Origin: a virus
DNA: 64,000 nt
Direction: 5' to 3' (one strand)
Virus record (IMG/VR): IMGVR_UViG_3300048839_000188
Coordinates: 1-64,000 of that record
The position numbers and the translations under genes were made by a program. The first letter of the stretch is position 1; each line of letters opens with the position of its first letter. Below the pieces are notes generated by a model. The model made no database searches. It worked only from the letters and a program-made list of their open reading frames with translations, and was not told the DNA's origin. This document shows positions 4,006 through 39,432 of the stretch, in pieces.

Positions 4006-5071
4006 TCAGCAACAATCTAAGCAAGGTAATCAAGTATATGCGACTAATAACTTGGTGATGGCCAATGGTAGGCCGCAGGTCGCACAGCAAGGCGCTGCTC
4101 AACAACAACAACAGAGGCAGAGAAACAATGCGCAGAACAATGCGCAGGGCGATTCTTTGAATCAAACACAGATTGGTGGAGTTCCGCGGAATTACAATGT
4201 CAATCAGTGGCAGCAGCAGGCTCAACAAAGATACGGCAGACAGGCCACACAGGATGAATTGAACCAAGTGGCTCAAAGAGTTGGTTATCAAGGTGGTGAC
4301 ATCAGCCAACAGCAATGGGACCAGTCTTGGAGTGTGGCTGATGAGATGGCCAAAAAAATGGGCTGGCAACCTCCCCAACAGCAGAATTCCCAAAATCAGT
4401 GGGGCCAGAATCATTCAACAATTGACCCAGTCACAGGGAGGATGTTTGGGCCTCAATATCAGAATCCATTCCAACAACAACAGCAGCAATTGATGCAGCA
4501 GATTTTGGGTTCTGGAGGTTCGATGAATCAGCAAGTCCAGGATTCAATGTTCGAACAGCAGAAGGAACAAGCACTTGCGCTCCAGAAGCAATTGGGGATG
4601 GCAGGTTCACAAGGTGTGGCATCGAGGGGATTCGGGCCAAAAGGTGGAGCAGCGGCCGGAATGCAAGGACAATTGAACAATGCTCTGGCTCAACAATTGA
4701 TGGGTGGTAGGAGAGATATTGCCACACAAGCTGCACAAGTCAATAGGGCTGACCAGTTGGCAGCATTGGGCGCTTCACAGGGACTCGACCAGCAAGGTTA
4801 TCAGCAATTCATGGGTGACAGAAACTCACAGTTGCAGGAATGGCTTGCTCAGAGGGGCAATCAGTTGGACACCAGGAGACAAAGTGCGCAGGAAGAACAA
4901 TTCAGGAGAGATTTGGAACTGCGCTACCAACAATTCATGGAAGGCCAGAGACAGTTCAATGAGAATTTTGGCGAGAACCGCAGACAGTTCAATAACCAGT
5001 TGGGTTTCAATTATACGAATATGAACAATACGAATAACCAGAATTTTCTGCGTTATCTGATGGGAGCATAA
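3998..5071 (+). CDS. Gln-rich hypothetical virion protein
   Basis: Start chosen at ATG 3998 with AAGGG 7 nt upstream, overlapping the previous gene by 8 nt; GTG 3983 is an in-frame alternative. 357 residues, very rich in Gln and Asn, with tracts such as FQQQQQQLMQQ and a C-terminal helical region (RYQQFMEGQRQFNENFG). Composition and position suggest an internal or ejection protein. No catalytic motif seen. Confidence 0.55.
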   Translation: MYNQQQSKQGNQVYATNNLVMANGRPQVAQQGAAQQQQQRQRNNAQNNAQGDSLNQTQIGGVPRNYNVNQWQQQAQQRYGRQATQDELNQVAQRVGYQGGDISQQQWDQSWSVADEMAKKMGWQPPQQQNSQNQWGQNHSTIDPVTGRMFGPQYQNPFQQQQQQLMQQILGSGGSMNQQVQDSMFEQQKEQALALQKQLGMAGSQGVASRGFGPKGGAAAGMQGQLNNALAQQLMGGRRDIATQAAQVNRADQLAALGASQGLDQQGYQQFMGDRNSQLQEWLAQRGNQLDTRRQSAQEEQFRRDLELRYQQFMEGQRQFNENFGENRRQFNNQLGFNYTNMNNTNNQNFLRYLMGA

Positions 5072-7623: not shown

Positions 7624-10600
7624 ATGCCACAATATATATCGAATGACCCTAATTTCGGGCTCCCTAAGAAACAATATGCTTCTATGGACCCGAATTTTGG
7701 TTTAGAATCCGCCCCAGACGCAACTGTTAGTTCGACTGATGTAATGGAAGAGCCCCCACCACTGACAGGCAAGATGGGGAACTTTCTTAGCCGTGTGGGG
7801 CGCACATTGGGAGCCACAGGAGAAGGCACCGCTACATTTTTTGATCAGATTGGTAACAAAAACGCATCCTTTGGAGATGCTTTGCAAAGTGGTTTGAATG
7901 CTGCTCAAAAGAACATAGCAAACTTGGGTAGTTCTACTGACGAAGTTATGGACTTTGACAAGGTCTTAGAAAATGCTGACTTGACAATCGGTGGCCACAG
8001 ATTGAATGAGTATCCTACTGCTCGTGCGGTTGCTGGCTTTGCTGGCGACGTGGTTGTTGACCCACTCAATCTAGTAGGCGGTCTGCCAGTGAAAATGCTC
8101 AGCAAGGCAGGAGTGAAATTGCCTTCGTTGGTGGCAAAAGCTGCTGGTGGTTCCAGCGAATTAAGTGGCGCAGTCGGCAGAATGCTGAAAACGGCCGGGA
8201 CCAAATTAGAAGAAGCACCAATCGTCGGGGACGTGTTGGAGAAATTTGTCCAATTTTCCAAACTTGGTAACGAGATGAGCAAGATTGACCCATCCTTGTC
8301 GTATAGAGACATGCGCCGCCTTGCAGCATCACGTGATAGGCACGCCGGTGAAATCTCCGCTGATTGGGCTGAACAGCTAACAAAAGGCATCGACAGAGCG
8401 GGGAGAAGAGAGATTGCTTTGGCTTTAGACGAGGGTCGCCAATTGAGTGATCCCAAACTGCAAAAAGCTGCGCAGAGAATTCGCCAGATTCTTGATAATC
8501 AGGTAGCTGAAGATGTTGCAGCGGGCTCATTACAGGCTTCCAAAGTAGTGCCTAATTATGTGCCTCGGTATCCTACAAAATTCGATGACAGTAATCCCAA
8601 ACTGCGCACTGTTTTGGCTGGCAAGACTAAGATGGATTCTTTGAGGAAGGAAAAGGGTCTTCTTACTCCCAAGACTCTGGCTGAAGCCGAAAAACGCCAG
8701 GGCGCACTCACAGACATTGCTGAAATCACAGGCCGTCGTTTGGCTGAAGGTATGAGGGCCAATCGCAGTATTGAATTCATGAAACAGACTGTTGAACACT
8801 TTGGCGAAAAAGGTGTGGCCAAGCCCGGTTATCGCACGCTTTCATTTAAGCACTTAAAGGACTCATTCCACCCGGATGCGATTAAGGGTTTGGATAATGT
8901 TTATTTTCCCGAGAAAATCGCACAGGATTTGGAAAAAGTCGCATTGTTTTCATCGAAGGAGACTGAGTTTTCTAAATTGGCAAATTCAGTCAGCAAGATG
9001 TGGCGTGGTTATGCGCTGAGCAGTCCTGGACACCAGTTCACGAACTTTGTGGGCAACGTGGCAAATATGCATCTTGGCGGGATGAGCATGAAGGAGATTG
9101 CTGAAAAATACAGTCGCGCACGCGGATTGGCCAAAATTCTCAACAATGAGCCAATGACCGCGCTTGCTTTACCATATGGTAGAGATAAGGTCAGGGGCAC
9201 ATATGGTATTGGCAAATATACAAATTACGATATCGACAAGGCGATTAAGGAATATGAAATTGTTGGCACGGCAACACAGCTAGGTGAATTGAAAGCAGCT
9301 AGGAACGCGCAAGTATTATTCAGAGGTCAATATAATCCTTTGAATGCTGACAATGTGGTCTTGGAGACAACTCGCAAATGGGGCCAGAAAAACGTCGAAG
9401 AACCAGCCAGAATTGCTTTCTTCTTGCACAGATTGGAGAAGGGTGATTCGCTGGAAAAAGCAGCACTCAAGACAAAGGAGATATTGTTTGACTATGGTGA
9501 ACTGACTGAGACTGAGAAAAAACTGAAATTGGGTCTAGTGCCTTTCTACTGTGTGCCTGATGATGGACAAATCTTGACCAAAACTGGATGGAAGTATTAT
9601 TGGGAACTTACAACAGGTGCGGATGAAGTGTTAGTTTACGACCACGAGAAAGACCACTCTTATTGGGAAACACTGAACAAATATGCAACGTTTGACTACG
9701 AAGGTGAGTTATTAACATTAGAGGATTCCCGTAACGGTAAGTTCTCTTTCACCCCTAATCACGGTTGGCCAGTTGTTGATCATAATGGTAATCGCTCACT
9801 GGTCAAAGGGTATGAGTTGAGAACGAACCACAAAATTCCTTTGGTCAGTGCCTCGACTGAGTGGCCGGAAGAATCTACATTATCGCCTCTAGAGGCGGAA
9901 GTTCTAGGATGGGTGTTGACAGATGGATATGTTGATGCCACAAAAAGACGTGTCAACATCTACCAGTCGAAGCCGCATTTTGTTCAGCACCTGTTGAAGT
10001 TGCTGGAAAATGATGCGTCATATTATGTATCAGCACGTAATGAACAACAATGGGATATGTATACTTGGACACTACGAGGCGCTCTTAAGGACAAGATTTT
10101 GTCTTTGATTCCCAACAAACATAAGGATGCTTTCAACATTCTACCTCATTTGAATAAAGAAACTGCTCAAATTCTGTGGACAGCCATGTATAACGGAGAT
10201 GGCACAACGACGAAACGCTTGGATGGCCAAAAGCAATGTGAGTTCTTTGCTCAACATGAAGGGATTATTTTCGATTTTTTCCAGATACTCACACTTATGT
10301 TGGGTCGAGTTGCGCAAAGGAATAAACGTGGAGCATATATTAGGCAAACACGTTACTTCAAGGTTGCTGGCAAACAGGGCGTTGAATGGTATAAAGGTAA
10401 AATCTGGTGCCCAGAACTCAACGGAAAGTGCTGGTATCTGCGGAGAAATGGCAAAGTTATCTTGAGCCAGAATACATGGACTCGCAAAAATGTCCCACTT
10501 CAATTGAAGGCAATTGCCGAAAGCCCAGAGAGACTGGAGAAGCATAAGGACTTTCTGGAAATGTTTCAGAACATGGGAGATGGCCAAGATTTTGCACAGC

Positions 10601-11181
10601 CTGAGTATTTGACTGAATCTGGTTACGTGCCATTGCCGTTGAAGGGCGAAAAGGGTACTCCGACAATGGGGCGTATGGCTCTACCGGCCCATGACTTGGG
10701 GCTGATTCCCAATGCGTTGAATTGGGATGCACTGGAAAATACAGGTCGCAGACTCGCGGGTATGGCTGCTCCTTGGGCCAAGATTATTCCCGAACTAACA
10801 CTTAATCAAGAATTGCAATCTGGTGTTCCCATCTTCAGAAGCAGTGGGTTGAGCAACCCATCACCATTGGGTAACCTGATGAATGCCATCGGTGCTGGCT
10901 CATGGTTGGGTGTGCGCGATACTCCAGATGGCCCCAAACAACATGATGTGATGTCTTATTTGACGAGAATGGCACCAGGATTTTCGTGGATGGCCAATAC
11001 CATTCCCGGTGTCCGCGAAGATGACCCCATTACAGGGGACAGATTGAATGTGATGGCGCAGATTCTAGGTGGATTAGCTGGTTTGAACCCACGGCTAATT
11101 AATCTGCAACAGCAAGCAAGCGAGCAGGATTACAGGATGGAAGAATACGATAAACGTATTAGAAGGTCGTTGGAACCATAA
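7624..11181 (+). CDS. Large internal/virion protein interrupted by an intein
   Basis: 1185 residues as translated; removing residues 643-950 (intein) leaves 877. N-terminal part has two copies of DPNFGL and then an alpha-helical segment (GFAGDVVVDPLNLVGGLP near 145). The intein splits LVPFY | TWTRKNVPLQL, a motif that looks conserved and functional, so splicing is probably needed. Start ATG is directly after the previous stop; the stop overlaps the next ATG (TAATG). By position it belongs to the ejection/internal protein set; exact role unknown. No lytic transglycosylase motif seen. Confidence 0.65.
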   Translation: MPQYISNDPNFGLPKKQYASMDPNFGLESAPDATVSSTDVMEEPPPLTGKMGNFLSRVGRTLGATGEGTATFFDQIGNKNASFGDALQSGLNAAQKNIANLGSSTDEVMDFDKVLENADLTIGGHRLNEYPTARAVAGFAGDVVVDPLNLVGGLPVKMLSKAGVKLPSLVAKAAGGSSELSGAVGRMLKTAGTKLEEAPIVGDVLEKFVQFSKLGNEMSKIDPSLSYRDMRRLAASRDRHAGEISADWAEQLTKGIDRAGRREIALALDEGRQLSDPKLQKAAQRIRQILDNQVAEDVAAGSLQASKVVPNYVPRYPTKFDDSNPKLRTVLAGKTKMDSLRKEKGLLTPKTLAEAEKRQGALTDIAEITGRRLAEGMRANRSIEFMKQTVEHFGEKGVAKPGYRTLSFKHLKDSFHPDAIKGLDNVYFPEKIAQDLEKVALFSSKETEFSKLANSVSKMWRGYALSSPGHQFTNFVGNVANMHLGGMSMKEIAEKYSRARGLAKILNNEPMTALALPYGRDKVRGTYGIGKYTNYDIDKAIKEYEIVGTATQLGELKAARNAQVLFRGQYNPLNADNVVLETTRKWGQKNVEEPARIAFFLHRLEKGDSLEKAALKTKEILFDYGELTETEKKLKLGLVPFYCVPDDGQILTKTGWKYYWELTTGADEVLVYDHEKDHSYWETLNKYATFDYEGELLTLEDSRNGKFSFTPNHGWPVVDHNGNRSLVKGYELRTNHKIPLVSASTEWPEESTLSPLEAEVLGWVLTDGYVDATKRRVNIYQSKPHFVQHLLKLLENDASYYVSARNEQQWDMYTWTLRGALKDKILSLIPNKHKDAFNILPHLNKETAQILWTAMYNGDGTTTKRLDGQKQCEFFAQHEGIIFDFFQILTLMLGRVAQRNKRGAYIRQTRYFKVAGKQGVEWYKGKIWCPELNGKCWYLRRNGKVILSQNTWTRKNVPLQLKAIAESPERLEKHKDFLEMFQNMGDGQDFAQPEYLTESGYVPLPLKGEKGTPTMGRMALPAHDLGLIPNALNWDALENTGRRLAGMAAPWAKIIPELTLNQELQSGVPIFRSSGLSNPSPLGNLMNAIGAGSWLGVRDTPDGPKQHDVMSYLTRMAPGFSWMANTIPGVREDDPITGDRLNVMAQILGGLAGLNPRLINLQQQASEQDYRMEEYDKRIRRSLEP
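9550..10473 (+). mobile_element. Intein with LAGLIDADG endonuclease in a virion protein
   Basis: 308 residues (643-950 of the host protein). It begins CVPDDGQILTKTGWKYY (block A, Cys1), has block B-like FTPNHGWPV, two LAGLIDADG motifs (LGWVLTDGYV and LWTAMYNGDG) and ends VILSQN followed by Thr (+1 nucleophile). The penultimate residue is Gln rather than the usual His, which may slow C-terminal cleavage. Inteins in phage structural proteins are uncommon. Boundaries rest on the C...N|T pattern and the clean fusion of flanks. Confidence 0.85.
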
Positions 11182-16569: not shown

Positions 16570-16764
16570 TTATTCAAACCTCACTCGACCATCCATGATG
16601 GCCTTGAAAATCGGATAATAAGTCCCAGAAGCCGTTGCGAGGTCATTGCTGACTCGTGTTCTGGGGAACCAATATGGATTGCCAAAAACATCTTGTGACT
16701 TCTCATAGATGTCAAATCCGTGTTCTTTTTCTACAATTACATAGTCTACTTTTTCGTTGTTCAT
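16570..16764 (-). CDS. Hypothetical protein
   Basis: 64 residues from ATG 16764, which overlaps the polymerase stop (TAATG); the longer frame to 16785 lies inside polA. Contains VIVEKEHGFDIYEK and an aromatic segment. Coupled to the polymerase gene; function unknown. Confidence 0.5.
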   Translation of the reverse strand: MNNEKVDYVIVEKEHGFDIYEKSQDVFGNPYWFPRTRVSNDLATASGTYYPIFKAIMDGRVRFE

Positions 16765-19700
16765 TATACTTCTACTTTCTGCCAAGTTTTCTGGCCTTGT
16801 GGATTGCCGTCTTCAAATACTATCTTCTTGGAATCTTGGTCAGCCCAATTGTAACCGAATTCAACCTCACAACCAATGCGGAGTCCATCTAGTTGCGGAA
16901 TAGGGCGCGTCAAAATCTTGATTAGAAATTCAGCAGCTTCTAATTTTCTAGATTCTGGAACTTCTAAACAGTAACTATCATGAGTGAAGCAATTAGCCGG
17001 CATCATTTGGCCCCATTCACTATTGCCAATTATCCTCAGCGAGTCACGACCAAATTTGGCCGCAATATGTTGAGGCATGAAGGCCAGTGCCTTCTTGGAA
17101 TCTTGGCCCATCTTCAATTTAGGTGAACCATCTTCATTATACATGAAATTCCCGTTTTTATCTTTCTTAAATGTGTGCACATCGTAGAAGTAATGTCTGT
17201 GGCCCCATGGACCGACCAAGTAGGATTCTTTCTTGGCCCTTGCTCGGGTGTCTTCTTGCCACTTTTTCAATGCTGGTAGAAGGTGGAAGATTTTATCTTG
17301 AATCAACTGAGCAGCTTCCTTGGTGGGGAACAGTTCTGGATTCTCCATGAACATCAAATAAGGGTCGCCTCCATACAGCAACAGGTAGACTGCTGTCTTG
17401 AACTGGCTGTAGAGTTTCTTATGGGCTGTTTTTGCCAGTTCGATGTTGGAATCTGTAAATGGTAGCCCTAGTTCTGCACAGACCAGGTAAGCGTGAATGG
17501 ATTTTTTAGCAATCGCAATAAAGTTATCATCTTGGATAAGCCAACCAGTAATGATTGCTTCGATTGATGTGGAATCTGCTTGAACAAATATGTGGCCATC
17601 ACGGGCGACAATTTGCCTTCTGGCTTTGACGGCCCATGGATTTGATTGTCTCTTGCCCACATTGGTTAGGTTCTCGTTCCTCGCAGCCAGACGCCATGTA
17701 GATGGACTGTTTAGATAAGTAGAATGAATGAGTCCATTGGAGTCCATTCTGTCGCAATATACATAAGTGCCCAGAACTTTCGACAGCTTGGCCTCCTTCA
17801 ATTTCAGATGATACAAAGGATGTTTGTCGCCGTATTTTGATGCCAGTTTTTCAATATGCTTGGCATTAGCAGAGTCTTTTTTGGTCTTCCTATCCTGGCC
17901 CATTGGGTGACCATGATAGCGGATATAATCCTTAATTTGGTCACTGCTGCCAATATTGAATGGCTCAATAATATCCCACTCGACAACATCCACGATTTTA
18001 CTGACCTTGGTCGCGTCAGCAGCCTTACAGGGATTACTCTTTTTACCACCCTTCAGGTGCTCGGTCCAATTGCCCACAATTTGGCCACAATGTGAACATG
18101 TGTTTTTCTCCTGCGGGACGATGATTTCCACAACTGGATGATCAGATTGCGGCTTGTCGCGTTTGTAATGTGTGCGCGGCCTGATTTCCAATGGCACCAT
18201 TGTTGATGCGCTCTCGATGATTTTGCGTTTCTCCTCCAACATTTCGGCTTTCAAAGCTCTGCTGTAATCAACATCGATAGCATTACCCCGTTCACCGGCG
18301 CGCACCAAAATGGGCATCAACTCCACTGAGTCTTCAACAAATGTTTCCCATTGATTGTTGTTTTCCAAGTCTTCTTTGATGCCGATTGCATTTTGTAGTG
18401 CCACATCTGCGTCTATGCATGAATAGAGTCCGGGGTTGCTATTGTTGAGATGCTTCCAAGGCATCTGACGAGTATAGACAGATGATACAAATTCCAATCC
18501 TCGTGGCAAGTCAGACTGTAACATGTGCCACCCATCCTGATAATCATACGCTACAGACTTGGTAATGTAACCTTCTTGCTTGAGTCGAGGAAGGTCGAAT
18601 AAGCAATTATGCGCGCCAAAACCCTCTAGCATATATGTATGTGTCGATGTGGCGAATCGGACAATTTTTTGCCGCCCCAAATCATTCACAGCCACGATCT
18701 GCACCCATTGGCCTTCTGGCTCCCGTAATTCCAAAGAGCCTAACATTTCAGGAGTCCACTTACTCAGCAGACGCATGGGACGAACCTGCCCCAAAAATCT
18801 AGCTGCCTGATTTCTACCATGGAGATTAGTCTTCACCAGCTTATGATTTTTGCTTGCGACATTATTAGTAGCTTTATACTGACTGGTTTTGTAACCTAAT
18901 TGAGTAAAAACAGAATTAGCATACTCGCAAGTGGGGCCGGCATTCTGATGGAATGATACTGTTCCTTGAGAGAGCGCACCCTCTCCATCCATGAAACCCT
19001 TCAGATAACCAGCTTCGTGAGATAAATTTGTTTCCCAAGGCAAAAAGTAACGCGGCACCTTCCAACCTACTTGTAGATTGTCAGTGGTCACCCATTTCAT
19101 ATTATGTGCATATTGTTTAGTTTGCTGAACAGGTATGAGCCATGGATGTTCTTTACTGACTTTAACTTTGGAGCCATCGGAAAATACCACTTCCCTGACA
19201 TCCTCATAAGTATGCTCCAACGCAGTGATGTAGGCAGTTTTATATTTCCGTCTCTTCCTGACCCCTGGAATATTTTCGTCAAAGCCAACTAAGGAATCTC
19301 CAATTACCAAGTCATCGGCCCTAACCCATCTCAAGTCACTAGTTAAGATGCGTTGCTCTGGCGTAGGACAGCCGTTCCACCACATTGAAGAGTGACACTC
19401 TTCAATGAGTCTGCGAATGCCTTTTAAATATTGTGGGCTCCACGCGACTGAGATAGCATGATGTGATTTGTAGGCAAACGATATCCTAAGCATCGCGCCG
19501 ATTTGTAATTCATCTTCCTCATAATCCTCTTCGCTTTCGACCTTCATCTTATACGCGGTTTCAATGTCAGTTGACAATGGCAAGAGTGAGTCGAGTGCTT
19601 CTTGGACCCACTTATCCCACAAACTCTGGGGTGGATCAACCACATACGATGGTGATGGTGGTTCTGTCCACTCACACAAGCCATGTTGTAAGTGACGAGT

Positions 19701-20087
19701 CCAGATACCCTGGAACCTAGTTGGCCGATGATATAATTGTGAGCGCGAACGGTCTGGTTCGTCATCATCTGACCACTGTGGTAACAACAAAGATGGCGAT
19801 TGGAGTGGCACAACCTGCATCAGTTGGCCATAGCGAGTGGATTTGACTCTTCTCCCGAACCACCTGAATAAATCATATCCACCAGTGATATCAGTAAGCG
19901 CTGATTCGCCCAATGTGAAAACAGCTTTAGTGCGGGGAGTCAGATGCTTGACAATATCTGATGTTGCTGAGAATCGCACTCTCTGAGGATCTAATCCACT
20001 TCTTTGGAACATCTTCATCCACATTGGGCGTAGATGCTCTTGTGGTGGACCTACGACTAAGAATCCATCATAGTCAAGATTCATCAT
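16764..20087 (-). CDS. Family A DNA polymerase with UDG-like N-terminus, interrupted by an intein
   Basis: 1107 residues, 852 after removal of the intein (240-494). Residues ~8-105 resemble the uracil-DNA-glycosylase fold (FLVVGPPQE; AVFTLGESALTDITGG; MQVVPLQSPSLLL) but lack clear catalytic residues. Exonuclease: DIET at 174-177 and NGCLFDLPRL after splicing. A Cys/His cluster (CSHCGQ...C) is an unusual insertion. Polymerase: FVQADSTSIEA (motif A), YSQFKTAVYLLLYGG (O-helix region) and FTHDSYCLEV (motif C, HDS where HDE is usual). Replicates the phage genome; follows a glycosyltransferase gene with 14-nt overlap. Confidence 0.85.
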   Translation of the reverse strand: MMNLDYDGFLVVGPPQEHLRPMWMKMFQRSGLDPQRVRFSATSDIVKHLTPRTKAVFTLGESALTDITGGYDLFRWFGRRVKSTRYGQLMQVVPLQSPSLLLPQWSDDDEPDRSRSQLYHRPTRFQGIWTRHLQHGLCEWTEPPSPSYVVDPPQSLWDKWVQEALDSLLPLSTDIETAYKMKVESEEDYEEDELQIGAMLRISFAYKSHHAISVAWSPQYLKGIRRLIEECHSSMWWNGCPTPEQRILTSDLRWVRADDLVIGDSLVGFDENIPGVRKRRKYKTAYITALEHTYEDVREVVFSDGSKVKVSKEHPWLIPVQQTKQYAHNMKWVTTDNLQVGWKVPRYFLPWETNLSHEAGYLKGFMDGEGALSQGTVSFHQNAGPTCEYANSVFTQLGYKTSQYKATNNVASKNHKLVKTNLHGRNQAARFLGQVRPMRLLSKWTPEMLGSLELREPEGQWVQIVAVNDLGRQKIVRFATSTHTYMLEGFGAHNCLFDLPRLKQEGYITKSVAYDYQDGWHMLQSDLPRGLEFVSSVYTRQMPWKHLNNSNPGLYSCIDADVALQNAIGIKEDLENNNQWETFVEDSVELMPILVRAGERGNAIDVDYSRALKAEMLEEKRKIIESASTMVPLEIRPRTHYKRDKPQSDHPVVEIIVPQEKNTCSHCGQIVGNWTEHLKGGKKSNPCKAADATKVSKIVDVVEWDIIEPFNIGSSDQIKDYIRYHGHPMGQDRKTKKDSANAKHIEKLASKYGDKHPLYHLKLKEAKLSKVLGTYVYCDRMDSNGLIHSTYLNSPSTWRLAARNENLTNVGKRQSNPWAVKARRQIVARDGHIFVQADSTSIEAIITGWLIQDDNFIAIAKKSIHAYLVCAELGLPFTDSNIELAKTAHKKLYSQFKTAVYLLLYGGDPYLMFMENPELFPTKEAAQLIQDKIFHLLPALKKWQEDTRARAKKESYLVGPWGHRHYFYDVHTFKKDKNGNFMYNEDGSPKLKMGQDSKKALAFMPQHIAAKFGRDSLRIIGNSEWGQMMPANCFTHDSYCLEVPESRKLEAAEFLIKILTRPIPQLDGLRIGCEVEFGYNWADQDSKKIVFEDGNPQGQKTWQKVEV
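18606..19370 (-). mobile_element. Intein with LAGLIDADG domain in DNA polymerase
   Basis: 255 residues, from Cys240 (CPTPEQRILTSDLRWV, block A) to Asn494 (GFGAHN), followed by Cys. Block B-like KVSKEHPWLIPV; one clear LAGLIDADG motif (YLKGFMDGEG). It sits in the exonuclease II motif of the polymerase: flanks rejoin to WWNG-CLFDLPRL. Classic class 1 intein chemistry (Cys1, HN, Cys+1). Confidence 0.9.
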
Positions 20088-20839: not shown

Positions 20840-21334
20840 TCACAATGACCTCCTAAAATAAGTAATCAATTTTTCAGCTTCTTCTAGTGTCATATTATTT
20901 TTCAATATGTTAGCTCGTAATGATATTACTTGAATATTCTCAGGTGTATAACCTTTTGTTGAGTCAATTCTATCAATTGATGGCCTATTATCGGCACGAG
21001 TCTCAATTAAATCTCGTTGGAGTTTAATACCCAAAATAGGGCAAACATCAGGAATTTTAATATTCTTTAATGTGATAGTAAATTCACGGTTCTTTAATTT
21101 GGCTCGTGATTTAGCTGTGTGAAATAATCTATACTCTAATGACCAATTTGCATATTGCCGCTTACTTAAAGACTTACGACAATCTTTGCAGATTGAATTA
21201 ATGCCAAACAAAGATTTAGTATTATAATGAAATTCACTCCACGATTTAACTGCTAAACAAGAACGGCATGGGCGAGTTTTAGTACTTTCCCACACCTGCC
21301 GTTCTGCTTTATTCCATATTACTCCCAAACGCAC
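20840..21334 (-). CDS. HNH homing endonuclease
   Basis: About 164 residues if GTG 21334 is used; the start is uncertain because the frame overlaps the end of the reductase gene. N-terminal zinc ribbon (CRSCL...CKDCR), then CPILGIKL, RPSIDRIDSTKGYTPEN and VISLRANILKNNMT, the pattern of phage HNH nucleases. Inserted right after the reductase 3' end. Confidence 0.75.
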   Translation of the reverse strand: MRLGVIWNKAERQVWESTKTRPCRSCLAVKSWSEFHYNTKSLFGINSICKDCRKSLSKRQYANWSLEYRLFHTAKSRAKLKNREFTITLKNIKIPDVCPILGIKLQRDLIETRADNRPSIDRIDSTKGYTPENIQVISLRANILKNNMTLEEAEKLITYFRRSL

Positions 21335-23196
21335 ATTCCTCCTAAACAAGCAGCATCGCGGGATAAGGTGGTATCGTCAACCACTTCCACCATCTTACCC
21401 AAATCGATTGTGACATTCTCAATAGCTTTTTCTCGCGCAAGAAAATCCTCCTCACTGATTGACTCATAGGGTGCGTTTTCATATTTGTGGTCATCTTTTG
21501 GCAAGAATGATAATCCGCCGACAATTGGCCACCATACTGATAACCATGATAGCACACTCTCCCACTCGTCTGGTTTGACATAGATGGTTGATGATGGATT
21601 ATGATCGCACCACCACAGTTTCCATGCTCTCCAGTATTCTAATTGCTCTAATGCGCTCATGTCGTCTTTGCTCAATGGCGATGGGCTCTTGACAGGAATC
21701 TCCACAATCGCATTAGTGCCCTCGTAAACATGTGGGACTCCTTGGGCAATCAGTGTGTTTGCTAGTTCAGAACCAGAATCGAGCCGTAGTCGGCGCAGAT
21801 AATAAGGTGCCCATCGAGCGTGGATTCCACTAGAGCAATCCAATAGTTGTGAGCTATTACCAGAGGGTTTGTTACATGTGATCGCAGCGCTCTGATTGAT
21901 GCCCAGTTTGTGCGCATATTTTCTATTGGTCTCATGTGCGACCCGACTTAAGTCCTCTAAAATAGTGGGCAAGTCATTCAGATTACTACTACTAAGTAGT
22001 GGACAATCCTGCGTGCCTGTGATATCGACTCCTAATAGTCTCTCGCGCTCGCAGTTCTTTGACCACTCCGGTCGCAGATTGGGAAAATATGTCATGCATG
22101 ATTGAATGGTGCCCCACACTGTTGCTAGATGGACTTTTTCTTTCAGCGAACCAAAATCATCATCGGGCCTCGCCACTGCGATTGACAAATTGCAGAATTG
22201 ATGTGGCTCTAGGATGATTTCACCACATGGATTAGTCCCATATTCGACACCAAGAACTCTCATACCATCCTGATGGCGATTGAAGATTCCTGGTTCACCG
22301 TAGCCATCCTTTGCTAATGTGTCGATGATTGTATTCAAATCACTATGCGATGCAACCATGCTATTGTTAGCCTTAGCCAGTTCAGGATACTTCGAAAACC
22401 AATCTCCTGTTTTGCAATTTAGCATATCGCCATCTTCTGCTGAAAATAATGCAATCAGTGCTGCTCTGCGGACGCCGCCCACATCTACGATTGAACCTGC
22501 TAAGCAAGCAAGACGATGGATATCGATTGACCGCAGTGCCTCACCTTTGCGATCACTAATGATGTCCCATGTTCCATCCAATAGTTTGCGCAGAGGTTCA
22601 GGTCCAGATGCACGACCGCCCTTAGTGGCCAATGGAGAGCCGTATGGTCTAATCCTGCTATAATCAAACTTTGGCTTAACGGCATCTAATGACATATCAA
22701 TTGCACGATAGAAAGCATCAGCCCACCCTAATGATGAGTCTTCGATAATATAAGGAATGTGATCTTTATCATCAACTGTTCCACTGTGTGTGTAGTGCTT
22801 AGGCGAGCGCCACTCTATGACATGCTGCAATTCCACCGAGTAACCCACGCCTGTGCCGCACATCAGAATATACAATAGTTCTCGGAGTGCCTCTGGCCCA
22901 TCCAACGGTAGATATGAACAGTTGTAAAGATGCGTGTGGTCTCGTGCTGCTGCTGGTCCTGCCATCTGAACAGCACGCATCGAAGGCAATACCTGTTTGT
23001 CGAGCATAGCTTTGCGAAGCCTCTTCCACACTTGTTCATCTAGCTTTCTGTTTTGCTTATTCAACTCATCGGTGAAGAACTCAATGACTCTATCAGTGGT
23101 CTCTTCCCATGTCTCTCTTCTATTAGCATGCGGTAGATATCTCGCATATTTATCGTAACGAACTATCTCTTTAAGTAACTCATTTCCTGTCATCAT
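21319..23196 (-). CDS. Class II (B12-dependent) ribonucleotide reductase
   Basis: 625 residues. Landmarks: LYNCSYLPLDG (first redox Cys), GTGVGYSVE, YGTNPCGEIILEPHQFCNLS (active-site finger loop with the thiyl Cys), CNKPSGNSSQLLDCSSGIHARWAP, and a C-terminal redox pair CLGGMC. Architecture matches monomeric adenosylcobalamin-dependent reductases. Supplies dNTPs without oxygen or a second subunit. An HNH-type gene flanks each end. Confidence 0.9.
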   Translation of the reverse strand: MMTGNELLKEIVRYDKYARYLPHANRRETWEETTDRVIEFFTDELNKQNRKLDEQVWKRLRKAMLDKQVLPSMRAVQMAGPAAARDHTHLYNCSYLPLDGPEALRELLYILMCGTGVGYSVELQHVIEWRSPKHYTHSGTVDDKDHIPYIIEDSSLGWADAFYRAIDMSLDAVKPKFDYSRIRPYGSPLATKGGRASGPEPLRKLLDGTWDIISDRKGEALRSIDIHRLACLAGSIVDVGGVRRAALIALFSAEDGDMLNCKTGDWFSKYPELAKANNSMVASHSDLNTIIDTLAKDGYGEPGIFNRHQDGMRVLGVEYGTNPCGEIILEPHQFCNLSIAVARPDDDFGSLKEKVHLATVWGTIQSCMTYFPNLRPEWSKNCERERLLGVDITGTQDCPLLSSSNLNDLPTILEDLSRVAHETNRKYAHKLGINQSAAITCNKPSGNSSQLLDCSSGIHARWAPYYLRRLRLDSGSELANTLIAQGVPHVYEGTNAIVEIPVKSPSPLSKDDMSALEQLEYWRAWKLWWCDHNPSSTIYVKPDEWESVLSWLSVWWPIVGGLSFLPKDDHKYENAPYESISEEDFLAREKAIENVTIDLGKMVEVVDDTTLSRDAACLGGMCVWE

Positions 23197-23638
23197 TAAA
23201 ATTCTCCAAATACTTAATCGCTGATTCTAATAATCTTAGGCTGTCTTTAAAGTTACCAATGCCAGCGTTGCACCGGGTGCACAATAAGCCCCTTACTTTC
23301 TTAGTTTTGTGATCATGATCAATACAAAGATAATTACGATCTGGAGAACCATGACAAATCATACATTGATTATTACAATCTTGTTCTAGTTTAACATAAT
23401 CAACTTCACTTAATTTATATTTGTTTTTAACATGGCGTAAACGAGCTTTCTTAACACCATTTTGTAAATGCCATTTATTAGCTTGTTGGCGTATATGCTC
23501 CCGTTTATTATGATAACGAATATTAGATAATTCATTTCTACAAGGCTTACAATAGCTATAAACTTTATTTTGTCGTTTGTCTAAATATCTACCTCTCTTT
23601 ATTTTTCCGCATTTTTTGCAGTTGCCTGTCACTATCAC
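23180..23638 (-). CDS. Recombination endonuclease VII-like (HNH) endonuclease
   Basis: 152 residues: N-terminal CKKCGK...CKPCR ribbon, basic linker, then CMICHGS, LCIDHDHKTKKVRGLLCTRCN and a helical tail (FKDSLRLLESAIKYL), the endonuclease VII family signature. Overlaps the reductase start by 17 nt. Likely a free-standing homing endonuclease rather than a packaging nuclease, given its place beside the reductase. Confidence 0.8.
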   Translation of the reverse strand: MIVTGNCKKCGKIKRGRYLDKRQNKVYSYCKPCRNELSNIRYHNKREHIRQQANKWHLQNGVKKARLRHVKNKYKLSEVDYVKLEQDCNNQCMICHGSPDRNYLCIDHDHKTKKVRGLLCTRCNAGIGNFKDSLRLLESAIKYLENFNDDRK

Positions 23639-23807
23639 TCTCGCTTTCCTTCAAATAATCATCTATGTGCGCATTAAAGCACTCAGAACATGTTGTCCAG
23701 TGTGATATCCACTCGCAATCACTGATGACTTTACCACACTTGGCGCATGTTTGTTCGATGCCACCACATTTACATTCCCTGTCCCAATTAGAATAGCAAT
23801 ATTTCAT
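23589..23807 (-). CDS. Small zinc-ribbon protein
   Basis: 72 residues with four Cys pairs (CKCGG, CAKCG, C-x-W, CSEC) and an acidic/basic tail. RBS AAGGAC. First gene after the ncRNA terminator; the 3' end overlaps the endonuclease VII gene by 50 nt. Nucleic-acid or protein binding is likely; no specific function. Confidence 0.55.
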   Translation of the reverse strand: MKYCYSNWDRECKCGGIEQTCAKCGKVISDCEWISHWTTCSECFNAHIDDYLKESESDSDRQLQKMRKNKER

Positions 23808-23827
23808 ATCTTTGTCCTTAGAGACAC

Positions 23828-23856
23828 AAAAAGCACTCCCATCTAGGAAGTGCCTT
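23828..23856 (-). terminator. Rho-independent terminator of the ncRNA
   Basis: Leftward: GCACTTCC, loop TAGAT, GGGAGTGC (8 bp with one G-U) followed by five T. It ends 20 nt before the start codon at 23807. Confidence 0.75.
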
Positions 23857-23999
23857 TGTTGGAAATTCAGAACGATTCTTTATCAATTAACAGTTGATTG
23901 GTTTAAAATGCTGTCTCGTTCTGCTATCAAATTTACACACCAGCTTGGTTTACATAGCAATTGTAATTTAAATGCTGATTGGTGTGTCTTTTCAAATCA
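23828..23999 (-). ncRNA. Structured non-coding RNA, candidate Y-like RNA
   Basis: About 170 nt bounded by a consensus promoter and a rho-independent terminator, with no open frame of note. Stems: ACACACCA (23935-23942) with TGGTGTGT (23980-23987), an inner AGCA/TGCT pair, then CAGAACGA (23868-23875) with TCGTTCTG (23916-23923) enclosing a 5-bp hairpin with 7-nt loop, then the terminator. It lies two genes' breadth from the TROVE/DUF2828-vWA gene, as bacterial Y RNAs do with their Ro60 partners. I do not see the exact vertebrate Ro-binding sequence, so Y-RNA identity is inference. It could also act as a leader for the gene at 23807. Confidence 0.55.
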
Positions 24000-24006
24000 T
24001 AATACT

Positions 24007-24036
24007 ATTATACTTTCAAAGTCCTTAGCGTGTCAA
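24007..24036 (-). promoter_or_regulatory. Consensus promoter for the ncRNA
   Basis: Leftward TTGACA (24031-24036), 18-nt spacer, TATAAT (24007-24012): both hexamers perfect. It overlaps the 3' end of the LAGLIDADG gene, whose stop codon lies inside the -10. Confidence 0.75.
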
Positions 24037-24436
24037 GCTTTTTTAAATCTTGCAGCCAAAATTTATACTCTCGACGCTTGGCAAATTCTTCAGGTGTTAG
24101 TTTCCTATCGCGTATTGGTTTACCACTATTCATGTTAAGCCAGTTTTGAAACTCTATAGCTGCCTCTGCTTGTTTATGTTTTACTAGTAAATAAGGTAAA
24201 AGCAGCTGCAATAATTTCTGCGCGTTCTTTGACCCAAATTGTAAAGTAAAACATTTATTTGTCACTTCTGGAATAGAACTACTTATGCCATGCTGTGTTT
24301 TGAGATAGTCCTGTATTAAACCTAAAATAGTCCTAAACTTTTGAGTAATGGTCACATTTAAGCCATAACTTTTAACTCCATTTATGGCTATGCAACCTTC
24401 ACCATCTAGAAATCCAGCTATGTATTCTAAAGTCAT
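24008..24436 (-). CDS. LAGLIDADG homing endonuclease
   Basis: 142 residues with a single LAGLIDADG motif near the start (YIAGFLDGEGCIAI), so it probably acts as a dimer. ATGA overlap with the TROVE gene stop. C-terminus is Lys/Arg-rich. Free-standing, inserted directly behind the TROVE gene. Confidence 0.8.
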   Translation of the reverse strand: MTLEYIAGFLDGEGCIAINGVKSYGLNVTITQKFRTILGLIQDYLKTQHGISSSIPEVTNKCFTLQFGSKNAQKLLQLLLPYLLVKHKQAEAAIEFQNWLNMNSGKPIRDRKLTPEEFAKRREYKFWLQDLKKLDTLRTLKV

Positions 24437-37312: not shown

Positions 37313-39313
37313 CTAATGTTTGGCGACCTTGGAGGCCCACTCGTCGATTCTCCTGATGGCCGTTGACTGGCTGACTCCATGTTTTGCAGCGAGGCGTTTT
37401 CCCAAATCGTTCTTGCTAATGCCGGGATGTTGGTCACTGATTGCCACAATATCCTTAGTCCACTCATCATCTTCTACTCCTTCTTGTTTATGGCCCACGA
37501 CCTTAATCAGATGCGTATGGGGGTCCTGTTCAATTTCCACGAACTCCTGCCCAATGGCACGGCCCTTATATGTGAGGCGTTTTTTTGTCAACCTCAAAAT
37601 AGTGTCCATCTTTCCCGCAATATACGAAGCACCACGGTTCTGGTCCATCATATCGTCATGGCCCTCGATTGCGGCTAGACCATCTTTTCTTTGGTGACTA
37701 ATGAGCACGATTGCTGTTGGGCTCCCCACTTCACCACGACATGCTTGAATGAGTCGCGCCACAACATTCCTCATGACACTGTTGTCGTTTTCATCACCCG
37801 AATGAACTTCTCTAAGAGTATCAATCACCACCAGAATAGGTTTGATCTTGTCCAGTTCATTCTTGAGCCACATCAATTCCGTATTATCAGGATTAACGAT
37901 GTTGAATGGGAACTGTGGAATATTCCACATGTCAGCCATCCAGAACATCTCTGCGGCATTCTTATTTTTGAGCCTCTGAAGCATGGCCTTCGCACGGGAC
38001 ATCCACTCTTCTCGTGGCGTGTCAATTTGCAAATATGCTATTGGGCCATACTTGCATATTTCGAATCCCTCCCATGTCGATTTGCCATCAAGCATCGATT
38101 CGATGATAGATAACATCATATAGGAATTATGTGTAAGAACATTATTTTGTCCAACTACAAACAGTCCATCCTCAGCATCCACACTCAAACACTTTGTTGT
38201 TTGCTGCTGAGGATGACATTGAATATTTGTAATCATCCTGTAACGTTCATTGATATTTAATTTGAATTTGTCAGCTTTTCGCTTCAAATTGAATATTTGT
38301 TCATGTGCTCTCACACAAACAGTGTAGACAGTCCCACAATCTTTCCCATATAAGGTAGCTTTTTTCTCCCTCATATGTGCCTTGAACCCTAATCCATTAG
38401 CTAACTCCAGAACTTGATGCGCAAGAACCTGATTAGTATTGTAGAACTCAGCACTCTCACCACCCAAAGCATATCCATCAGTATCCATCAATCCCCGCAA
38501 CAATTGCAATCTTTGCTGCTTGGAAGCAATCATGTATTCCAATGGAATATGCTTATTGTTCAATAATTGCATATCTTTCAACAGCATACGGAGTCCTTTG
38601 ACCCCATATGCGTATGGCGCTTTCCATTTCTTCACAGTCCATCCACTATTTGTCCATGCATCAACAATTTCTCGATCTGCTGATGTGATGGCTCCTGTTG
38701 AAGATGTGCCATCACCTAACCATACACCTAAAAGGTATGGGTCTAATGACAAATCCTGTTCAGGAAACTCCAATGATTCCACAAGTGAGACAGAATACTT
38801 TGGCCTCTCATATGGACCATCCTTTACAGTGATTCCTTTTTCCCACAATTCACTAGTTGACAACGTAACAGATGGCCCAATAGGTCTGTGTTGATTCACA
38901 GTCCATTCGTGCTCTTTATCACAATCCACATGTGTGCCATCATCGAATGTCACACGCATGATTGGTCTTTGTGTCCATGAGTATGTGCCTATGACTTCCA
39001 CTGGTTTTCCGTCAGAGCCAAAGACACAATCACCCACTTGAATATCTGCTATTGTTTTCCATCCATCTGGTGTGAACAATTCAGTATTCAATGCCAGTGC
39101 TTTGCCCAGCTTCGGTTTTGCGTATAAGTTGACCATCCCACCGACTGGGATTAATTTTTTGACAATCCACTTCTGCGGGTCAGCGGGCAGTGAACAGTAT
39201 TCCTCCAATGTCACAAAACGATAGGGATTATCATCACTTAGAGGCTGCGTTTGTGGTGGTGACTCAGTAGCATCAACGGCACCAACAATATCAGTGGCAT
39301 CAACTGTGGTCAT
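37313..39313 (-). CDS. RepA-like replicative helicase/ATPase interrupted by an intein in the P-loop
   Basis: 666 residues from ATG 39313 (TGATG overlap with the small upstream gene); 341 after intein removal. Intact Walker A is only made by splicing: AKPKLGK + SYMML. Walker B ILVVIDTLRE, then VLISHQRKD (sensor-like) and a C-terminal winged-helix/HTH (ISKNDLGKRLAAKHGVSQST). RecA-fold AAA_25/RepA type, likely the replicative or primase-linked helicase. Confidence 0.8.
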   Translation of the reverse strand: MTTVDATDIVGAVDATESPPQTQPLSDDNPYRFVTLEEYCSLPADPQKWIVKKLIPVGGMVNLYAKPKLGKALALNTELFTPDGWKTIADIQVGDCVFGSDGKPVEVIGTYSWTQRPIMRVTFDDGTHVDCDKEHEWTVNQHRPIGPSVTLSTSELWEKGITVKDGPYERPKYSVSLVESLEFPEQDLSLDPYLLGVWLGDGTSSTGAITSADREIVDAWTNSGWTVKKWKAPYAYGVKGLRMLLKDMQLLNNKHIPLEYMIASKQQRLQLLRGLMDTDGYALGGESAEFYNTNQVLAHQVLELANGLGFKAHMREKKATLYGKDCGTVYTVCVRAHEQIFNLKRKADKFKLNINERYRMITNIQCHPQQQTTKCLSVDAEDGLFVVGQNNVLTHNSYMMLSIIESMLDGKSTWEGFEICKYGPIAYLQIDTPREEWMSRAKAMLQRLKNKNAAEMFWMADMWNIPQFPFNIVNPDNTELMWLKNELDKIKPILVVIDTLREVHSGDENDNSVMRNVVARLIQACRGEVGSPTAIVLISHQRKDGLAAIEGHDDMMDQNRGASYIAGKMDTILRLTKKRLTYKGRAIGQEFVEIEQDPHTHLIKVVGHKQEGVEDDEWTKDIVAISDQHPGISKNDLGKRLAAKHGVSQSTAIRRIDEWASKVAKH
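38126..39100 (-). mobile_element. Class 3-type intein with two LAGLIDADG motifs
   Basis: 325 residues. First residue is Ala (ALALNTELFTPDGW), so class 1 chemistry is impossible. Trp in HEWTV, Cys in TKCLSVD and Thr in VLTHN give the WCT set of class 3 inteins, in which the block F Cys starts splicing. Endonuclease motifs LLGVWLGDGT and LLRGLMDTDG. Ends HN followed by Ser. Confidence 0.85.
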
Positions 39314-39432
39314 CAATATTCAACCACCACATCGATTAGACCATCAGGCCACTCAGTCGCATTGCCAGTGAAATACTGATACTTCGGCCCCTTCAAACTA
39401 ATACTTTTCACTTTACTATTCTGTGCGCTCAT
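39313..39432 (-). CDS. Small hypothetical protein upstream of helicase
   Basis: 39 residues (MSAQNSKVKSISLKGPKYQY...), AAAGGAG at good distance, stop overlapping the helicase ATG. Probably translated and coupled to the helicase. Function unknown. Confidence 0.55.
   Translation of the reverse strand: MSAQNSKVKSISLKGPKYQYFTGNATEWPDGLIDVVVEY

Follow-up and report, generated by a model that had tools for sequence, protein, structure and literature searches.

Ro60, a major human autoantigen, is a protein whose ancient function is debated, and the Y RNAs bound to it act by gating its ring or by tethering a nuclease. The present analysis concerns a 64,000-nucleotide stretch of viral DNA (positions 1 to 64,000 of the 69,989-base IMG/VR record IMGVR_UViG_3300048839_000188, hereafter the window), in which a candidate noncoding RNA is encoded on the minus strand 3' of a Ro60-like gene. 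We consider it quite probable that the site is a small phage RNA gene with its own promoter and terminator, and that its product serves as RNA partner to the Ro60-like protein specified by the gene upstream. Ro60 relatives are known from other phages. Mycobacteriophages of clusters C and AF have a gene for a Ro60-like protein (PMC12363180), and a transcriptome study of Listeria phage CKA15 describes very abundant noncoding RNAs on the same strand as, and at most 2 kb from, the Rsr-like gene CKA15_055, reports the Rsr-like protein in purified particles and proposes a Ro-Y RNA pair (PMC12282133). In the text consulted, no hairpin signature is reported, and the CKA15 RNAs, in contrast to the RNA of the window, lacked obvious intrinsic terminators (PMC12282133). 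Ro-Y RNA pairs in phages are thus not a new concept, and the CAGCAA hairpin class set out below is not in Rfam. Like YrlA (RF02553), a bacterial Y RNA with a tRNA-like module, the window RNA is encoded beside, and on the strand of, a Ro60-family gene. Judged from its sequence, it is probably a Y-like RNA devoid of the tRNA module that binds the phage's own Ro60.

The Ro60-like protein and the candidate RNA gene

The upstream gene (24433..25890, minus strand) encodes a protein of 485 amino acids that matches DUF2828, DUF7788 and phrog_850 ('RNA-binding protein') and consists of a HEAT-like ring and a vWA domain with a DxSGSM motif. AlphaFold modelled it with a predicted local distance difference test score (pLDDT) of 85 when 44 relatives were aligned, against 42 from the single sequence. 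In Foldseek/VIA-align comparisons the model matched the Ro autoantigen 1yvp over its whole length (Z 20.4, 403 residues, root mean square deviation 4.0), followed by the Thermus phage Ro60 9l5y (Z 15.0) and Rsr of D. radiodurans 2nvo (Z 13.3). The modelled protein shares the full-length ring and vWA fold with Ro60 and Rsr of the TROVE family (PF05731) but belongs to DUF2828/DUF7788 and is only 11-20% identical to the solved structures. According to tblastn, Ro-like genes are present in 681 of 50,697 phage records. Many of them sit within tRNA arrays, as would suit a function involving small structured RNAs. The window also encodes a second vWA-domain protein of 377 amino acids (30342-31475, same strand) near a tRNA-Leu gene (31750-31826).

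A preliminary description of the candidate RNA, made from the DNA alone, had claimed an undescribed noncoding RNA gene with perfect promoter hexamers and a terminator, two perfect 8-bp stems, no driven open reading frame (ORF) and an overlap with the stop codon of a homing endonuclease gene, and had left the strand unstated. All of these features are present on the minus strand. The sigma-70-type promoter TTGACA-N18-TATAAT (24007..24036; hexamers at 24036-24031 and 24012-24007) has no second perfect counterpart in the 64 kb, where shuffled sequence gives an expectation of 0.05. Both of its hexamers are written into the last codons of the LAGLIDADG endonuclease gene (stop codon 24010-24008). 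An intrinsic terminator (23825..23856), AAGGCACTTCC-TAGAT-GGGAGTGCTTT, begins 150 nt past the promoter and comprises 11 pairs and a loop of 5 (23856-23830) followed by TTTTT. When a promoter of at least 10/12 matches was required together with a strong terminator at a spacing of 40-250 nt, this was the one such pair on either strand of the window, compared with 0.17 from shuffles. From promoter and terminator spacing and fold, a noncoding RNA of about 172-175 nt is predicted (23826..24000), which would start at A24000 and end in the U run at about 23827 (length about 172 nt). It holds nothing coding beyond a Met-Ile-stop at the predicted start. An RNA gene with these signals, whose expression is predicted, is also our best reading of the site; no Rfam family describes it.

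The arms of stem 1, ACACACCA/TGGTGTGT (23987-23980 / 23942-23935), and of stem 2, CAGAACGA/TCGTTCTG (23923-23916 / 23875-23868), form perfect 8-bp pairs with pairing probabilities of 0.54-0.99 and 0.97-1.0, respectively, and two separate stems of this length arose in 0.12% of 5000 dinucleotide shuffles. The fold z-score is -2.5 for the minus strand and -1.05 for the plus strand. Each of the two stems is trailed by 2 nt and CAGCAUUU(U)AAA, a resemblance noted ahead of the covariance-model test below: stem-loop 1 (23935..23987) reads ACACACCA-AU-CAGCA(UUUAAA)...UGGUGUGU with CAGCA at 23977-23973, and stem-loop 2 (23866..23925) reads CAGAACGA-GA-CAGCA(UUUUAAA)...UCGUUCUG with CAGCA at 23913-23909. 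The terminator hairpin stays paired in the stable fold of the predicted RNA.

That terminator bears on a reading in which the site is a 5' leader or attenuator, with the promoter serving the downstream 72-amino-acid ORF (23589..23807), endonuclease VII-like HNH gene (23180..23638) and class II (B12-dependent) ribonucleotide reductase gene (21319..23196), and with the stem-loops setting read-through. All these genes are co-oriented with the RNA, and the terminator ends about 20 nt ahead of the 72-amino-acid ORF, as such a leader would have it. Against it stand the paired terminator hairpin, the lack of any match to known leader or riboswitch families at the locus, and the fact that the hairpin family described below adjoins Ro-like genes and not reductase genes. 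We regard a leader as improbable, while some read-through from the RNA promoter could occur alongside an RNA partner of Ro60 and is compatible with it. The 72-amino-acid ORF is Cys-rich and matches no family. A type III toxin-antitoxin layout (promoter, RNA repeats, terminator, toxin) was considered for this ORF and the RNA and rejected, as tandem repeat units are missing from the RNA and the ORF has no family match.

CAGCAA hairpins beside phage Ro-like genes

The surroundings of 92 Ro-like genes, from 12 annotated phages and 80 viral contigs, were compared. The gap 3' of the Ro-like gene has a median of 362 noncoding nucleotides, whereas other pairs of co-oriented genes have 52 nt between them, both figures resting on crude gene calls. 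In the aligned gaps, 5' arms of stems are followed directly by UUACAGCAAA, GCAGCAAA or similar sequences, which defines, from 89 phage loci other than the window, a hairpin family on the gene strand: a stem of 7-9 bp, 2-3 nt, CAGCAA, an A-rich loop of 25-45 nt and the return arm, whose start lies about 31-45 nt after the motif. The density of ACAGCAAA in the gaps at Ro-like genes is 0.402/kb on the gene strand and 0 on the opposite strand, compared with 0.015/kb for noncoding sequence elsewhere and 0.029/kb for coding sequence. A strong stem, with its 3' arm at 25-50 nt, accompanies 49% of motif sites but only 2.7% of random positions. This was replicated in 65 independent loci, taken from contigs of bacterial and archaeal genomes and new to the analysis, where the values were 31% and 2.6% and the motif lay 129 times in forward and 16 times in reverse orientation. 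Sigma-70-like promoters with at least 11/12 matches precede the hairpin arrays of other phages in 7% of cases, against 0.7% at random, a mild excess. No Rfam family covers the CAGCAA hairpins in the loci searched, and we found no description of the class in the literature searched, whose coverage did not extend to the main Y RNA papers.

Two covariance models were built, R1 from 44 hairpins of other phages only and R2, in a second round, from 119 hairpins; neither contains sequence of the window. An unfiltered R1 scan of both strands of the entire window placed stem-loop 2 first (23925-23866, minus strand) with 21.6 bits and a rough E-value of 0.0069, followed by a runner-up with 15.3 bits (E 0.39). 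Stem-loop 2 was also the top match of R2 (28.7 bits, roughly E 0.00026; runner-up E 2.2). It is a member of the CAGCAA hairpin family tied to Ro60-like genes, and the RNA that contains it lies on the same strand about 430 nt 3' of the stop codon of the Ro60-like gene, with one endonuclease gene between. Stem-loop 1 has the geometry of the family, with a gap of 2, an arm of 8 and a distance of 35, but scores weakly. The preliminary description had treated the RNA independently of any link to Ro60, and it is this link that became the main clue.

The tie of the family to Ro-like genes was evident in sequences that R1 had not seen. In 80 such loci it gave 74 matches, 72 of them on the gene strand and most within 450 nt before a Ro-like gene, and the matches included contigs of Woesearchaeota and Methanobrevibacter. 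Across complete phage records and genomes of 1.7-6.1 Mb, strong matches fell at the Ro-like locus with one exception, in G276. That genome has an extra cluster of three CAGCAA hairpins (L215; G276:C1:1056621-1058990), and tblastn finds no Ro-like gene in the 16-kb stretch taken. The R1 scan of the window, the R1 search of unseen loci and the comparison of stems at motif sites with its replication are the independent tests of the family.

These data argue against an independent regulatory small RNA, unrelated to the Ro-like protein, whose targets would be mRNAs of the phage or the host. Phage small RNAs are common and the candidate has its own promoter and terminator, yet the family to which stem-loop 2 is matched keeps to Ro-like genes and to their strand; this explanation appears unlikely to us, if still the first among the alternatives. 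Chance resemblance of untranscribed DNA to a promoter and hairpins could be invoked in view of a single genome and of the perfect promoter that appeared in 5/100 shuffles. That all signals coincide at one site (0.05 perfect promoters and 0.17 promoter-terminator pairs expected, a frequency of 0.0012 for the two stems, and E-values of 0.007 and 0.0003 from the models) makes this explanation barely credible.

Relation to known Y RNAs and points against a Ro partner

The stem of YrlA is expected to hold the Ro site, and in mycobacteriophage Nicholas (L009) a CAGCAA stem (4556-4563 / 4676-4683) encloses an Rfam YrlA match of 37.9 bits (E 8.7e-5; curated cut-off 69). CAGCAA stems surround the T-arm signature GGTTCGANNCC in 26 loci. 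Because the same stem encloses a YrlA-like T-arm in Nicholas and in others, the CAGCAA stem is, on sequence grounds, likely to be the Ro-binding part of phage Y RNAs, with or without a tRNA-like module inside. YrlA matches at L086:3056-3168 and L088:396-500 overlap tRNAs, may be tandem tRNAs read as permuted, and were left unused. Cellular TROVE loci present a different picture: a mycobacterial TROVE locus (L185) has YrlA and no CAGCAA hairpin, and three whole actinobacterial genomes that carry TROVE gave no R2 match. In another Listeria phage, A511 (L013), a pair of strong CAGCAA hairpins scoring 50.3 and 47.8 bits immediately precedes the Ro-like gene. Just upstream of these hairpins and the gene lies a ROOL RNA match (L013:1507-2058, 87.5 bits, cut-off 99.1), and by analogy the most abundant CKA15 transcripts may correspond to ROOL RNA as in A511.

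Further structured RNAs were seen near phage Ro-like genes. Next to two of them, tRNA-like genes of 110-115 nt carry an additional stem-loop in the anticodon arm (L005:4866-4975, L014:2737-2851), with further such genes of 112-120 nt at L067, L081 and L088; they could be tRNA mimics. At L041:5253-5790 and at L050, L053, L056, L066 and L070 the Ro-like gene is followed by a complex, conserved noncoding RNA that is several hundred nucleotides long; this RNA shows GGUGU/ACACC and GAAUGG/CCAUUC pairings and matches no Rfam family in L041, L050, L053 and L056. A phage tmRNA gene lies near the Ro-like gene of L024 (6658-7131).

Several points weigh against the window RNA as a partner of Ro60. Both window stem-loops have CAGCA at the family spacing but U as the sixth base, i.e. 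CAGCAU and not CAGCAA; stem-loop 1 reaches no more than 10.1 bits with R2 (E 8.7 in 64 kb); two further sites in the window combine [AGT]CAGCA[AT][AT] with a strong stem; and the calibration of R1 and R2 is rough, as are their E-values. In contrast to YrlA, the window RNA has neither a T-arm/D-arm module nor a YrlA match. The Pfam TROVE model (PF05731) does not match the Ro60-like protein, and because that model fails to detect it, the protein is, on the evidence of its modelled structure, a distant branch of the Ro60 fold (DUF2828/DUF7788 lineage). The LAGLIDADG gene separates the Ro60-like gene from the RNA, whose promoter overlaps the end of the endonuclease coding sequence. Finally, blastn of the locus against the 50,697 phage records revealed no close relative that carries the candidate RNA, and counts of covariation are inflated, as the hairpins were picked for their stems and A5 was aligned to the model. 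Comparative folding in related phages, suggested in the preliminary description, was accordingly answered in part: distant relatives retain the family stem through changes on both sides, with the counts inflated by selection as stated, and close relatives are missing from the collections.

Other searches for relatives gave the same result. Neither searches of viral contigs with three proteins of the phage (Ro-like protein, reductase, terminase) nor a 33-base pattern from the candidate RNA yielded a relative with that RNA, and the RNA showed no direct sequence homology to other loci. Phages with a 51% identical terminase are fragments, in which a Ro-like gene was not found. At the window locus a weak Ref64 match (E 0.66) was discarded, as it covers the terminator hairpin alone, and there was no match to YrlA or tRNA.

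The minus-strand order at the locus is Ro60-like gene, LAGLIDADG gene (24008..24436), candidate RNA, 72-amino-acid ORF, endonuclease VII-like gene and reductase gene, and the LAGLIDADG start codon overlaps the Ro60-like stop codon (ATGA). That the RNA belongs to the LAGLIDADG mobile element, as its remnant or regulatory tail, and to no Ro system might be suspected from the promoter within the last codons of the endonuclease and from the habit of LAGLIDADG genes to travel with introns. No group I or II intron core matches at the locus, the Ro-like ORF is complete, and many phages have the hairpin beside Ro-like genes without this endonuclease, so we hold such an origin to be very improbable. 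Homing endonuclease genes are abundant in the window (24008-24436, 57165-57782, 58905-59438, 23180-23638 and 59652-60248), and intein-like inserts in the ORFs at 7624-11181, 16764-20087 and 37313-39316 are probable inteins.

A proposed phage Ro-RNA pair

For an RNA partner of the Ro60-like protein we infer transcription, Ro binding and a biological effect along the following lines. A host-type RNA polymerase would start at the gene's own promoter and make a transcript of about 172 nt, which would end at the intrinsic terminator and is predicted to fold into the two CAGCA stem-loops and the terminator. Stem-loop 2, and probably stem-loop 1, would provide the element bound by Ro, in which the 5' arm of a 7-9 bp stem has CAGCA(A/U) 2-3 nt behind it, and the Ro-like ring would bind the RNA at stem and CAGCA element, presumably on its outer face by analogy with cellular Y RNAs. 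The bound RNA might then control the access of other RNAs to the cavity or tether other factors, e.g. a nuclease. With two binding sites, one RNA could join two Ro rings. The outcome would be phage control over RNA turnover or small-RNA quality during infection.

Beyond this locus, we think it rather likely that the phage-type Ro60 (DUF2828/DUF7788) has a widespread Y-like RNA class of its own, composed of arrays of stem-NN-CAGCAA hairpins that mostly lack a tRNA-like module. CAGCAA would be the recognition site, the class would extend over phages, bacterial contigs and archaeal metagenome-assembled genomes, and the window RNA would be a divergent member with two hairpins and with a strong promoter and terminator of its own. 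Hundreds of sequenced phages (the 681 records above) carry a Ro60-like gene without an assigned partner or role. A simple, searchable RNA signature beside the Ro60-like gene would make the partner RNA predictable for each phage and the system testable, and in a minimal phage Ro-RNA pair that lacks the tRNA-like module, binding could be told apart from effector function.
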